64,000 nt of DNA from Pseudoalteromonas shioyasakiensis (GTDB lineage Bacteria; Pseudomonadota; Gammaproteobacteria; Enterobacterales; Alteromonadaceae). The stretch covers positions 1,260,001 to 1,324,000 of the forward strand of contig NZ_CP077770.1 of NCBI RefSeq assembly GCF_019134595.1, written 5' to 3'. Below, piece after piece: positions 42,008 to 46,776 of the stretch (position 1 is its first letter; every line of letters begins with the position of its first letter). Under the pieces are notes generated by a model that saw only the letters and a program-made list of their open reading frames with translations, was not told the DNA's origin and made no database searches. The position numbers and the translations under genes were made by a program.

Positions 42008-43416
42008 TGAAATCAATTCGCAGTAAGTTAGTAACCACATTATCGATTACTATAACTGGGCTAGTGCTGAGTATTTTAGTTGCTACCGATATCGCCGTTG
42101 ATAGTTGGATTGATAACGAATTTAATCGTGGTTTGAAATCAAAAGCCGGCATGCTTATGTCATTGATTGATATTGACGAAGAAGAAATTGATTTTGATTT
42201 TTCAGGGCAATTCATGCCTGAGTTTTCAGGCAGTACAGAAACTGAGTATTTTCAAATTTGGTCGCAGTCTGGGGTTTTTGCGCGTTCAGAAAGCTTGCAT
42301 CTTTTCTCACAAAAGAATCTACCTCTAGAGAAAATAAAGCTTGGCGAGACAAAAATCATCAATACTGAGTTACCTGATGGTCGCAATGGCCGGGTTATTT
42401 ATACTCGCTTTATACCGCCTTTAGACCTAGACGATGATGAAGACTTTATTGAGGGCGTTAACACCTCTTTGCAACAACCCATAACCTTAGCTTATGCGGC
42501 TTCATCAGAAGAAGTTGACTTTGTTTTATGGCTCATCGACGTTATTTTTGTTGTTTCTACTGTGTCAGTAATCGTATTTATTCGTCTATTTGTGCGTAAA
42601 TCGGTCGACAGCTCTTTAGCGCCGCTGAATAAACTAAACCGGGATATTAGCCGGCTCAGTATCGCCGATAAAAATGCCGTGATAACAATAAAAGAGCCTG
42701 TTAAAGAGCTGCAAACCATTGTTGATAGCTTAAATGCCTTTATCCAGGAAAACCGCCAGCTTTATTTTCGCGAAAAACGCTTAACCTCAGATATTGCCCA
42801 TGAATTAAAAACGCCGATTGCTGAGCTAATCAACATGGCTGAAGTGGCCATTCGGTTTCCAAATGAAAAAGAGTTTGAGGCAGACTTTAAACCCGAAGTG
42901 CTAAAAATCAGCCAGCGTTTAAAGAGCATTGTGTCGAACTTATTATTACTGCATAAGTACAGTGATGAAGCACTCCCAAAGCAAGATGCATGCGATTTAA
43001 ATCAGGTTATTTTACGTACCTTAGAAAAACATGATTTAGAGCGAATTAAGTTTGAGTTTCAAGATGATATTCCTGCCATTGTCAGTAATTTATTTGCCCT
43101 TGAATCAATCATCACCAACCTTGTAAATAACGCAAAGCAATATAGCCCCGACAAGAGTGATGTAACTATAAGCACGCTACTGACGAAAGAGGATAAGCTG
43201 CAATTCTCTGTTACAAATGAATTAAAAGTACCTTTAACAGAAGACGATTTGAGCCAGTTATTTGATCCACTCTGGCAAAAAGACAGTGCCAGAACCTCTA
43301 ATGATAACTTTGGGTTAGGCTTATCTATTGCCAAAGCGTTAAGTAAAGCAATTGATGCTGAACTTCAGGTGTCGTTAAGTGGGCAAAACATAACCTTTAG
43401 TTTGATTATTTCTTAA
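42007..43416 (+). CDS. Sensor histidine kinase, PmrB-like partner
   Basis: This 469-residue kinase has two membrane helices (about 12-32 and 175-198) and an acidic periplasmic loop (with DIDEEEIDFDF and LDLDDDEDF). A HAMP-like linker follows, then HisKA with phospho-acceptor His265 (SDIAHELKTPIAEL) and an HATPase domain with LVNNAKQYSP and GLGLSIAKALS. The acid-rich periplasmic loop would suit sensing of cations or cationic peptides, as in PmrB (inference). It is coupled to the regulator gene. Confidence 0.9.
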   Translation: MKSIRSKLVTTLSITITGLVLSILVATDIAVDSWIDNEFNRGLKSKAGMLMSLIDIDEEEIDFDFSGQFMPEFSGSTETEYFQIWSQSGVFARSESLHLFSQKNLPLEKIKLGETKIINTELPDGRNGRVIYTRFIPPLDLDDDEDFIEGVNTSLQQPITLAYAASSEEVDFVLWLIDVIFVVSTVSVIVFIRLFVRKSVDSSLAPLNKLNRDISRLSIADKNAVITIKEPVKELQTIVDSLNAFIQENRQLYFREKRLTSDIAHELKTPIAELINMAEVAIRFPNEKEFEADFKPEVLKISQRLKSIVSNLLLLHKYSDEALPKQDACDLNQVILRTLEKHDLERIKFEFQDDIPAIVSNLFALESIITNLVNNAKQYSPDKSDVTISTLLTKEDKLQFSVTNELKVPLTEDDLSQLFDPLWQKDSARTSNDNFGLGLSIAKALSKAIDAELQVSLSGQNITFSLIIS

Positions 43417-43491
43417 GGCTTTGCAGGCGTTTAATATGTGTGCAACACTGAGGTTATCAAAAAGAAATTAATAACAATAAGGAACAACACG

Positions 43492-43680
43492 ATGGGAAAA
43501 ATTATAGGTATTGCTTTAATCGTTATTGGTGTGGCGCTAGCTGTATGGGGATATAACGTTTATGACTCTGCAAGTGCGCAAATTAGCCGCACGTTTAGTG
43601 GTGACACACCAATTGAAGCTTGGCTCGGTATGGTCGGGGGCGCAATTTGCGCAATTGTGGGTATTTTAAAAGTTAAATAA
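43492..43680 (+). CDS. DUF3185-like small membrane protein
   Basis: The 62-residue protein has two hydrophobic helices (residues 3-22, KIIGIALIVIGVALAVWGY, and about 44-60) joined by a polar loop with SAQISRTFSGDTPIEAW. The layout and sequence match the small DUF3185 membrane family, which is of unknown function. The start ATG 43492 has AAGGA eight bases upstream. It stands between the kinase gene and the SOS-boxed nuclease gene. Confidence 0.8.
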   Translation: MGKIIGIALIVIGVALAVWGYNVYDSASAQISRTFSGDTPIEAWLGMVGGAICAIVGILKVK

Positions 43681-43689
43681 CCGCAAACA

Positions 43690-43734
43690 TTGAAATCAAT
43701 TAGCTAATACCTGATACTGTATTTATATACAGTG
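43690..43734 (+). promoter_or_regulatory. SOS (LexA) box over the promoter of the FAN1-like nuclease gene
   Basis: CTGTATTTATATACAG at 43717-43732 fits CTGT-N8-ACAG exactly. Over 20 bases (43715-43734) it matches the E. coli consensus at 18 positions. A -35 TTGAAA (43690-43695) and a -10 GATACT (43713-43718) with a 17-base spacer place the box over the -10 and start site, the normal position for repression. The coding start is 14 bases beyond the box. Confidence 0.88.
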
Positions 43735-43746
43735 TCGGGTTTGGCT

Positions 43747-45921
43747 ATGAAAACACAACTACCAGCAAAATATTATTTAAGTCATTTCTTTGAGCTTGCT
43801 GAATTTATTCAATCTCAGTGCAGGCATCTGCTTTTAGCAGAGCAGCAGCAATTTCTTGAAAAACTCCTTCAGCTTGATGAGCAAAGCTTATGTACTTTAC
43901 TGCGAGTTTATTCTCGTAAGCCAAAAATCGTCGCGCTGTCATCATTAAATTATGAAGAGATCCCCAATCTGCACGGTGCTATTTTTAAGCTAAAACAGCA
44001 AGGGCTGGTGGCACATCCTAGCAGCGACGAATTAGATCTATTGCTTGAGCATTTAACCAAACCAACCCTGTTAACCTTATTAGCAAATGATGAGTTAATG
44101 GCCATTCAACCTGATTACAAAAAGTCAGCCAGTAAACAGAGTTTAACCCAACTGTGTAAAGAGCATATTGATCGCAACCACAGTGAATTAGAGGCGTTGT
44201 TTAGTCAGTTCGTGGTCAATAGCCGTAGCCAGTATTATGAATACTTTGAGTTTTTACATAGCGGCCGACTAAGTGGCGGTGATATCAATCATCAAAATCG
44301 TTTTGTGATGCGTGATTTGGGAATTGCAAAAGTACGTGGTGATGTTAGTGAGAGCATATCGCGTTTTCAAACACTAGCCGAAGCACAAACGCATTATCAA
44401 TTAAATAAGCTGCGAATGCAGTTCAAAGAAAGCGAGTCAGAATCACAGTATCAGAACTTAGCCCAAGCGCTTTTAGCTATTAGCTCTGAAGATGAGTTAG
44501 CCCAGAGTATCAAAAACAAGTTACTGATCCGCTTATATAAGCAGCTTAAAGAGCATGACCTAGCATTTGCATTTGAGTTACTTGAGCACTGTGAAGGCAG
44601 CAGTGAAGCGCAAGAGCTGGCAATTCGCCAGCGTTACAAACAAGGTGATAAAAGCTGGGTTGAACAAAAGCTTGAGCAAGTTATTCAAGACCCACTTGAT
44701 GATGGCATTTTGTATTTTGCAGAGGACTTTTTACAGCGTAAATATAACAAGCAACAACGCTCACGTTTAACACAAATGCTCATTGATACAGAGCATCAAT
44801 TAGAGGTTGATGACATTTATCGTGGCGATGTCGAGCAAGGAGTGTGTGAGTACTATCAACAGCTTGGCAATACGGTATTTTTTACCGAGAATAATCTTTG
44901 GTTGAGCTTCTTTACCTTAACGTTTTGGCAAGAACTCTTTATAGAGACCCCGCACCCGCCGTGTAATGAATTTGATCTTTATCCAAAGGTATTGCTGGCT
45001 GATTGTTTTCACACAGTGCAACAAACACAAATTGAGCAAAAGCTTGCAAAATTCACTAGTAATGAAGCCTTATATAAATATGTTTGCAAAAACGTAGGGC
45101 AGTTTTATGAAGCGCCTAACGCTGTGTTTGTGTGGCACAGCGATATGTTAGAGCCGCTAGAGGTATTAATAAAATACAGCCCGCTTACAAATTTAAAAGC
45201 GCATTTATTGCAAATGACAAAAACCTTTAAGCAGCTCAAAGATGGCTACCCAGACTTGATGGTGCTAAAGGGGGATAAGCTTACCTTTGAGGAAGTGAAA
45301 GCTCCTGGCGACAAATTAAGACGCAACCAACTTGTCAGTATTGAGGTGTTAAAACAACATGGCTTTGCAGTAAATATCGTTGCGGTAAATTGGTTTAATG
45401 ATCCAAATCGAATTTACAGTGTGGTGGATATAGAAACCACCGGCGGCGTACAAGGTAATAATAAAATTACCGAAATAGCCGTTGTGCAGTTACAAGCGGG
45501 TGAAGTAATCAATCAATGGGCGAGTTTAATCAATCCTGAGCGCAGTATTCCTGCTTTTATCACCAAGTTAACGGGGATAAACGCCGCTATGGTTCGTGAT
45601 GCGCCACGCTTTGAAGAGGTTGCTGATACACTGCGCTCACTATTAAAAGGCAGCGTATTTGTTGCCCATAATGTGAATTTTGATTACGGCTTTATTCGCA
45701 AAGAATACGCTGCACTTGGGCAAGGCTTTAAAATGCCAAAGCTATGTACCGTAGTTGAATCACGTAAGGCATTTCCAAAGCTTAAGTCTTATTCGCTCGG
45801 TAACTTAGCCGCACATTTTGAATTGAATTTAACGAATCACCATAGAGCGTTAGCCGATGCAACTGCCACTGCAGAGCTGTTAAATCTGATTCAACAAACA
45901 CAATCAAAAAAGGCGAGTTAA
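43747..45921 (+). CDS. FAN1-like VRR-NUC nuclease fused to a DnaQ-type DEDDh exonuclease
   Basis: The 724-residue protein combines three parts. The N-terminal ~490 residues are helical and resemble the DNA-binding and TPR-like regions of FAN1 (HFFELAEFIQ, LLRVYSRKP, DLGIAKVRGD). A VRR-NUC domain follows (GYPDLMVL near 500, then FEEVKAPGDKLRRNQ near 513-527, the PD-ExK type with Gln). The C-terminal part is a DEDDh 3'-5' exonuclease with Asp561 and Glu563 (VVDIETTGG), Asp646 (HNVNFDYGF), His699 and Asp704 (HHRALADATA). The expected role is structure-specific incision plus trimming in crosslink repair. The start ATG 43747 is chosen after the LexA box, and its ribosome site is weak. Confidence 0.9.
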   Translation: MKTQLPAKYYLSHFFELAEFIQSQCRHLLLAEQQQFLEKLLQLDEQSLCTLLRVYSRKPKIVALSSLNYEEIPNLHGAIFKLKQQGLVAHPSSDELDLLLEHLTKPTLLTLLANDELMAIQPDYKKSASKQSLTQLCKEHIDRNHSELEALFSQFVVNSRSQYYEYFEFLHSGRLSGGDINHQNRFVMRDLGIAKVRGDVSESISRFQTLAEAQTHYQLNKLRMQFKESESESQYQNLAQALLAISSEDELAQSIKNKLLIRLYKQLKEHDLAFAFELLEHCEGSSEAQELAIRQRYKQGDKSWVEQKLEQVIQDPLDDGILYFAEDFLQRKYNKQQRSRLTQMLIDTEHQLEVDDIYRGDVEQGVCEYYQQLGNTVFFTENNLWLSFFTLTFWQELFIETPHPPCNEFDLYPKVLLADCFHTVQQTQIEQKLAKFTSNEALYKYVCKNVGQFYEAPNAVFVWHSDMLEPLEVLIKYSPLTNLKAHLLQMTKTFKQLKDGYPDLMVLKGDKLTFEEVKAPGDKLRRNQLVSIEVLKQHGFAVNIVAVNWFNDPNRIYSVVDIETTGGVQGNNKITEIAVVQLQAGEVINQWASLINPERSIPAFITKLTGINAAMVRDAPRFEEVADTLRSLLKGSVFVAHNVNFDYGFIRKEYAALGQGFKMPKLCTVVESRKAFPKLKSYSLGNLAAHFELNLTNHHRALADATATAELLNLIQQTQSKKAS

Positions 45922-45931
45922 ACTCGCCTTT
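45909..45931. terminator. Bidirectional terminator between the nuclease gene and mscS
   Basis: AAAGGCGAG / CTCGCCTTT with loop TTAAA; the loop contains part of the nuclease gene stop codon. It serves both convergent genes. Confidence 0.85.
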
Positions 45932-45936
45932 AAGTG

Positions 45937-46776
45937 TTATTTACCGGGAAACTGGTGAATATGAACATCCCTTTGCGGGAATGGAATTGTGATATCAGCA
46001 GCGTCAAAGGCAATTTTAACCTTTTCATATAATCCAAAATACACTGGCCAGTAATTATCAGAGTCAACCCATGCCCAAACAAGCATGCCAATGTGGCTGT
46101 CACCATGCTGACTAACATGCACAACTGGCTTTTTAGCTTCTTGATCTTTTAGCACTAACTCATAGTCATTAAGTACACTCAAAAGTACCTCACGGGCTTT
46201 ATGAACATCATCGCCATAACTAATACCAAATTCAATATCAACACGGCGCGTTGGCTCAGCAAACTTATTCTTAACGCAGCCATTTGAGAGCGTGCCATTT
46301 GGGATAATGATTTTTTCATTATCGTAAGTGAGTAAAACAGTGACAAAAATTTGGATCTCAACAACTTTACCCATGTAGCCTTGCGCTTCGATTACATCGC
46401 CAACTTTAAAAGGCTTAAAGAATAGAATAAGCACGCCACCTGCAAAGTTAGCAAGGCTACCTTGTAGTGCCATGCCCACCGCAAGGCCTGCAGCACCTAG
46501 CATTGCGATAAACGACGTGGTTTCTATGCCAATCATAGAAGCAACAGATATCAGCAACAGTACTTTTAAAATGACCGAGATAAAGGAAACTAAAAAGTGC
46601 GTAAGACCAACTTCGAAGTTGACTTTATTCATTGATTTTTCGGCCATATTGGCAATTCTACCAATTAACCACCAACCTATAATTAAAACCAGTATTGCTA
46701 GAATAAACTTTGGCCCGTAAAGCATCAGCAATTCGATAGCTTGGTTATAGATTTTCTCGATTGATATTTCGTCCAT
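45937..46776 (-). CDS. mscS: Small-conductance mechanosensitive channel MscS
   Basis: MscS opens under membrane tension on hypo-osmotic shock. The 279 residues match E. coli (286). There are three membrane helices, with the pore-lining Gly/Ala-rich TM3 (AAGLAVGMALQGSLANFAGG), then the beta domain (FKVGDVIEA, NEKIIIPNGTLSNG) and a C-terminal alpha/beta domain. The start ATG 46776 is preceded by AAAGGGAAAG. It is a monocistronic gene convergent with the nuclease gene. Confidence 0.94.
   Translation of the reverse strand: MDEISIEKIYNQAIELLMLYGPKFILAILVLIIGWWLIGRIANMAEKSMNKVNFEVGLTHFLVSFISVILKVLLLISVASMIGIETTSFIAMLGAAGLAVGMALQGSLANFAGGVLILFFKPFKVGDVIEAQGYMGKVVEIQIFVTVLLTYDNEKIIIPNGTLSNGCVKNKFAEPTRRVDIEFGISYGDDVHKAREVLLSVLNDYELVLKDQEAKKPVVHVSQHGDSHIGMLVWAWVDSDNYWPVYFGLYEKVKIAFDAADITIPFPQRDVHIHQFPGK

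Follow-up and report, generated by a model that had tools for sequence, protein, structure and literature searches.

A FAN1–DnaQ nuclease fusion of Pseudoalteromonas is a predicted member of the LexA/SOS regulon

We predict that fan1-dnaQ, a gene in the 64-kb stretch of DNA that was analysed (the window), is very likely an SOS gene that is repressed by LexA, so that LexA should bind its promoter and DNA damage should induce its expression. The gene encodes a FAN1-type nuclease that is fused to a DnaQ-type exonuclease, and a LexA-type box, CTGTATTTATATACAG, overlaps its promoter. The original prediction read this box as a sign that a FAN1-like nuclease is damage-inducible, and that interpretation is supported by our comparisons across genomes, with binding and induction as its predicted consequences. 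The features of the locus are as follows.

43690–43695, + strand: -35 element TTGAAA (promoter scan; TTGA is 94–100% conserved in clade A)
43713–43718, + strand: -10 element GATACT (promoter scan), after a 17-bp spacer; it overlaps the 5' end of the box
43717–43732, no strand: LexA box CTGTATTTATATACAG, of the form CTGT-N8-ACAG; an operator predicted from sequence and conservation
43747–45921, + strand: fan1-dnaQ gene, 724 amino acids from ATG 43747; the frame from GTG 43732 is also open
43771–44010, + strand: FAN1_HTH domain (PF21315; Pfam, E = 6.9e-14)
45121–45393, + strand: VRR_NUC nuclease domain (PF08774; Pfam); D503, E516, and K518 are invariant in 12 orthologues
45421–45882, + strand: C-terminal DnaQ-type DEDDh exonuclease domain (RNase_T, PF00929; Pfam); catalytic residues are invariant
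45909–45931, no strand: terminator-like stem 3' of the gene (3 such sites in 43400–46000 versus 2.3 expected)

A LexA-type box over the fan1 promoter

The full CTGT-N8-ACAG palindrome that had been described at 43717–43732 is found exactly there, and we reproduced its reported match to the SOS consensus: the 20-mer TACTGTATTTATATACAGTG (43715–43734) agrees with the E. coli-type LexA consensus, TACTGTATATATATACAGTA, at 18 of 20 positions. Could AT-rich intergenic DNA have produced this match by chance? The bare palindrome alone is not remarkable, because 0.80 copies are expected per 64 kb and the window contains one. The complete site, however, is the joint best LexA-type match in the genome, tied with one other site. 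Across the 4.72-Mb genome, seven sites lie within three mismatches of the 20-mer, versus none for the control. The CTGT-N8-ACAG core itself occurs 59 times in the genome (many of these copies are intragenic) versus 19 times for the reversed control.

The genome encodes one clear LexA (TIGR00498, 265.8 bits; PF01726, 103.5 bits). It contains the sequence VAAGEP, which we take to be of the autocleavage type, so this host LexA is predicted to have both a DNA-binding and an autocleavage domain. Boxes with the CTGT-N8-ACAG core are also found at these genes of the same genome:

lexA (L167): 29 bp ahead of the gene
recA (L012): 23 bp ahead of the gene
umuD (L015 and L141): two copies
recN (L150)
dinB (L164)
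uvrD (L002)
topB (L140)
SulA/ImuA-like gene (L139): a one-base variant of the core

Since the same motif stands ahead of recA, lexA, and other SOS-type genes, the fan1 box is of the kind that LexA is expected to read, and the fan1 promoter carries a predicted operator of the host's own motif, as a member of the LexA/SOS regulon should. For topB of Vibrio parahaemolyticus, LexA binding was observed in an electrophoretic mobility shift assay (EMSA; PMC3323433).

Three other sites of this genome are of separate interest. The two umuD-like genes (L015, G000:C1:872616; L141, G000:C1:3547638) are distant from each other and have an identical LexA 20-mer. The other joint-best site, TACTGTATATAAAAACAGTA (L136, G000:C1:2694967-2694986), lies 55 bp ahead of a comEA-like competence gene, hinting that DNA uptake is under SOS control. 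And a LexA-like box that matches at 16 of 20 positions (L014, G000:C1:860272-860291) lies 19 bp ahead of an ISCR/IS91-like transposase open reading frame; transposition of this element may be damage-inducible.

A promoter with a 17-bp spacer had been proposed under the fan1 box, and a promoter scan scored this -35/-10 pair at 9 of 12. Over 43400–46000, the scan found 6 promoters where 6.7 are expected by chance; because it yields no excess, the promoter call rests on conservation. In a gapless alignment, anchored on the box, of the window and 34 upstream regions from clade A, TTGA and GATACT are 94–100% conserved with identical spacing. Given the position of the -10 element, the box covers the final two bases of this element and the presumed region of the transcription start, so transcription probably begins within the box region. 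As described, 14 bases separate the end of the box from ATG 43747. The longest open reading frame starts at GTG 43732, inside the box, and ATG 43747 is the start that is common to most of the clade-A relatives.

Conservation of the box and its switch in Alphaproteobacteria

We found the gene in 86 of 99 sampled Pseudoalteromonas genomes and inspected the upstream DNA of all 86. (Among the best 80 of 562 relatives, which were kept, the nearest named one is P. arabiensis, at 85–86%.) The complete core, with all 8 of 8 bases, is present at 77 of the 86 orthologues, and 67 of those 77 boxes score at least 16/20. Conservation in close relatives, which had been proposed as a check, is borne out: the closer clade keeps the core at all 38 of its orthologues (L016, L017, and L046–L081; 55–100% identical; the count takes in the split gene of G147), and the more distant group at 39 of 48. 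By comparison, none of the 244,338 other positions across the genus loci has it. In clade A, all eight core bases are the same as the window's in every one of the 34 upstream regions, and mean identity in the flanks is 53% over the 40 bases 5' of the box and 42% over the 12 bases 3' of it. No box was found upstream of nine of the 86 orthologues (L098, L101, L106–L110, L118, and L124). Judged by their remaining upstream sequence, these nine are of at least two types.

We also considered whether the box is a property of the neighbourhood. Of the 86 loci, just 11 gave a hit to the upstream kinase and just 10 a hit to DUF3185 (with a limit of E = 1e-5, which diverged copies could escape). As these neighbours were mostly not detected while the box persists, the box tracks the gene and not its surroundings, and we ruled this candidate out.

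Fusion-type matches (E < 1e-100) are present in 34 of 118 genomes of the family. Among the best 80 of 562 relatives, the fusion is found in named records from Alteromonas, Glaciecola, Aliiglaciecola, Idiomarina, Aliidiomarina, Rheinheimera, Arsukibacterium, and Motilimonas, as well as in Alphaproteobacteria and in two Verrucomicrobia records. A search of plasmid records gave no match. Before counting boxes, we dropped L045 and L276 (N-terminus out of frame), L260 and L318 (upstream DNA too short), and loci with identical upstream DNA. For 53 other gammaproteobacterial fusion genes (with duplicates removed, and including one record that is labelled just Proteobacteria), 15 upstream regions have an 8/8 core, 23 have a 7/8 core (with at least 13/20 overall), and 15 have no box, so 38 of 53 bear a box.

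The same motif stands out if none is assumed. We ranked each of the 256 possible palindromic half-sites at a gap of 8 bp, and CTGT/ACAG was present in 89 of the 152 fusion upstreams and the runner-up in 8; with gaps of 4–7 or 9–12 bases, CTGT/ACAG was present in 0 or 1. In-gene control windows contained a box in 0 of 186 cases, and 3720 shuffles gave an 8/8 core in 3 (0.08%) and a 7/8 core in 31 (0.83%). These conservation counts refute a chance match at fan1, which we now regard as exceedingly improbable. Conservation of the predicted operator across orthologues is instead as expected for a gene of the LexA/SOS regulon.

The LexA of Alphaproteobacteria recognises a different motif, GTTC-N7-GTTC (PMC3323433). 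In a search of both strands over 250 bases, we found this motif, perfect in every case, at 14 of 15 alphaproteobacterial fusion genes (L381 is the one without it), and in no other upstream region that we tabulated; its rate in shuffles is 0.56%. The 14 genes are from four Asticcacaulis, one Caulobacterales metagenome-assembled genome (MAG), three Bradyrhizobium, one Rhodospirillales MAG, and four other genomes (five genes). Of those five, four cluster with Bradyrhizobium in the tree and the fifth is too short for placement. In eight of these alphaproteobacterial genomes we also inspected recA, where GTTC-N7-GTTC is perfect in seven and 7/8 in one. We ranked direct repeats with a 7-bp gap as well (one strand, 150 bases). 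In the full set of 152 fusion upstreams, GAAC (12) comes after TATA (16) and ATTT (13), an order to be expected from AT-rich DNA; among the 14 alphaproteobacterial upstreams, GAAC comes first with 12 and the overlapping AACA is next with 6. The Verrucomicrobia have neither box at their fusion genes (2 of 2; L210 and L213) or at recA, and these motifs may not be those of their LexA.

The fan1 motif thus switches with the type of LexA in the host, which points to selection for SOS control; two unrelated operators, each matched to the host's LexA, would be hard to explain in another way. A comparable case is splB, a photoproduct-lyase-like gene, for which the occurrence of LexA sites of two very different types was taken to suggest genuine membership in the SOS regulon (PMC3323433).

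The switch also bears on whether the box is read by LexA or by another LexA-like repressor, of the prophage or PrtR/AlpR type. Additional damage regulons with such repressors exist in P. aeruginosa (PMC12796719), and besides lexA, this genome has two further hits to the LexA DNA-binding family, both weak and under the cut-off. But the motif at fan1 is the one found on this genome's lexA and recA, and at the alphaproteobacterial fan1 genes it changes to the motif of their recA. We consider another repressor very improbable and LexA the expected reader of the box.

FAN1 without the DnaQ domain and P. aeruginosa PA1865

A tree built from the FAN1 part (89 rows, a quick method, and several long branches) has a single branch, with a support of 100, between the standalone and the fusion forms. 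In a mixed sample of 34 standalone genes, 6 have an 8/8 core, 8 have a 7/8 core, and 20 have no box. These 20 include all 6 genes of family f173, which belongs to the same order. Since recA of an f173 genome (G540) does have a full box, FAN1 there seems truly to lie outside the motif.

We next took one genus, which we infer to be Pseudomonas-type, of the family with the nearest relatives of P. aeruginosa FAN1 (PaFAN1). FAN1 is found in 144 of the 149 genomes of this genus, and we examined 70 of the 144 upstream regions (those of the 30 top-ranking matches and of 40 chosen from further down the ranking); these genes are counted as DnaQ-free from the length of the open frame alone. A LexA-like box of the kind CTGTAYGYATAAMCAG is present in 68 of the 70, at 47–81 bases 5' of the alignment anchor and mostly in the form CTGT-N8-CCAG (7/8). 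L387, whose best match lies elsewhere (8/8 but 11/20, at -200), was counted as a miss, as was L404. In-gene windows from this genus had a 7/8 core in 3 of 70 cases and never scored above 11/20. The mirrored form, CTGG-N8-ACAG, is found on recA in four gammaproteobacterial genomes that we checked. Our first small sample had suggested that the SOS link is limited to the fusion form, and the boxes at Pseudomonas-type FAN1 genes rule that out. The predicted link between FAN1 and the SOS response reaches beyond the genome studied here, to Pseudomonas-type genomes and, with another type of box, to Alphaproteobacteria.

A full match to PaFAN1 was not found among the sampled genomes; the closest locus, L423, is 93% identical over 164 residues, and its upstream region carries a full box, CTGTATGCATGAACAG. 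At this locus, an ATG that fits the 559-residue form lies inside the box, and a GTG 30 bases downstream fits the starts of its relatives and may be the true start.

The P. aeruginosa gene, PA1865, is described in PMC12796719 as induced by UV-C and by ciprofloxacin and repressed by hydrogen peroxide. It is one of 18 UV-C-induced genes without a known LexA-like repressor and does not belong to the known regulons of LexA, Prt, or Alp; for its induction, the authors invoke "additional layers of regulation ... yet to be elucidated" (PMC12796719).

This report also bears on the size of the response. LexA might bind at fan1 and yet induction might be small, or it might be overridden by read-through from DUF3185. 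A terminator scan detected no terminator-like site between DUF3185, which ends at 43680, and fan1, and the P. aeruginosa LexA genes PA1044–PA1045 were unaltered by UV-C (PMC12796719). On the other hand, PA1865 was reported as induced in the same study, fan1 is the sole open reading frame of at least 80 amino acids that starts beside the box, and DUF3185 was not detected upstream in most of the box-bearing relatives. We consider weak or masked induction unlikely and continue to favour damage-inducible expression of fan1-dnaQ from its own promoter.

The fusion protein and its predicted role in the SOS response

The protein was originally described as a FAN1-like nuclease. This holds for the FAN1 part, with its HTH (PF21315) and VRR_NUC (PF08774) domains, but the protein is not a plain FAN1, as it has a C-terminal DnaQ domain (PF00929). 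E381, which lies upstream of the VRR_NUC domain, is invariant in 12 orthologues, and E381, D503, E516, and K518 align with E, D, E, and K of PaFAN1 (PDB 4r89), which we take to be the catalytic residues. With HTH and VRR_NUC domains and the E..PD..E.K motif all present, the protein is a predicted member of the FAN1 nuclease family. In the C-terminal domain, which matches TIGR00573 (dnaq) above the cut-off, D561, E563, D646, H699, and D704 (DEDDh) are invariant in 12 orthologues, so by its catalytic residues this domain is a predicted DEDDh 3'-5' exonuclease. An AlphaFold model (12 sequences in the alignment; mean pLDDT 89.0) agrees: the top fold matches of the FAN1 part are PaFAN1–DNA complexes (5y7g, E = 3.3e-21, 22% identity), and the C-terminus matches the exonucleases of DinG, PolC, and Pol III epsilon.

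Two solved proteins resemble the fusion. PaFAN1 (PA1865; PDB 4r89 and 5y7g) shares the HTH and VRR-NUC domains and the catalytic E, D, E, and K, and the FAN1 part can be aligned to it over its length; it differs in having 559 residues without a C-terminal DnaQ domain, and it is 22% identical to the fusion in the fold comparison. Among proteins of solved structure, S. aureus DinG (PDB 8zef), a DnaQ-DinG fusion, scores best in sequence against the exonuclease domain. There too, an exonuclease is joined to a DNA-processing enzyme, but the partner is a helicase and the exonuclease is N-terminal (PMC12345164).

If LexA acts at this promoter as predicted, then in undamaged cells a LexA dimer bound at the box would cover the -10 element together with the presumed start of transcription and so keep the gene silent. 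Upon DNA damage, RecA on single-stranded DNA would trigger self-cleavage of LexA and the FAN1-DnaQ fusion would be made. Judged by its P. aeruginosa homologue, the FAN1 part would cut 5' flaps in a structure-specific manner and would be able to unhook interstrand crosslinks, and the DnaQ part, as a 3'-5' exonuclease, may trim the 3' end that remains at the same lesion. We infer the 5' flap and 3'-5' exonuclease activities from the domains and their residues, and we hold a cooperative mechanism of the two nucleases with far less confidence than LexA control. The broadest reading would be that FAN1 is a cross-class SOS member that surveys have missed and that the fusion is one damage-inducible polypeptide, with active centres of opposite polarity, that combines unhooking and trimming; we propose this tentatively and put its chances somewhat below even.

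In classic SOS genes of Gammaproteobacteria (recA, lexA, recN, dinB, and umuD), CTGT-N8-ACAG likewise lies at the promoter and near the start codon, and, as with fan1, the product acts in DNA repair. Unlike those genes, FAN1 is not identified as a target of LexA in the consulted passages of PMC3323433 and PMC12796719. Among the titles and abstract openings listed by searches of one open-access library, we found no report of LexA control of any FAN1 gene; the SOS regulon itself is well known, and judged by those titles, openings, and passages, FAN1 as a member of it appears to be new.

FAN1 has been studied chiefly as a human nuclease of crosslink repair and repeat expansion. Because the link to a LexA-type box recurs in distant bacteria, each with its own type of operator, FAN1 appears to be an SOS gene that has gone unnoticed. 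For P. aeruginosa, LexA control would offer a direct and testable explanation for the induction of PA1865 by UV-C and ciprofloxacin. For bacteria with the fusion, the DnaQ domain poses a concrete biochemical question, namely whether unhooking and trimming are coupled.
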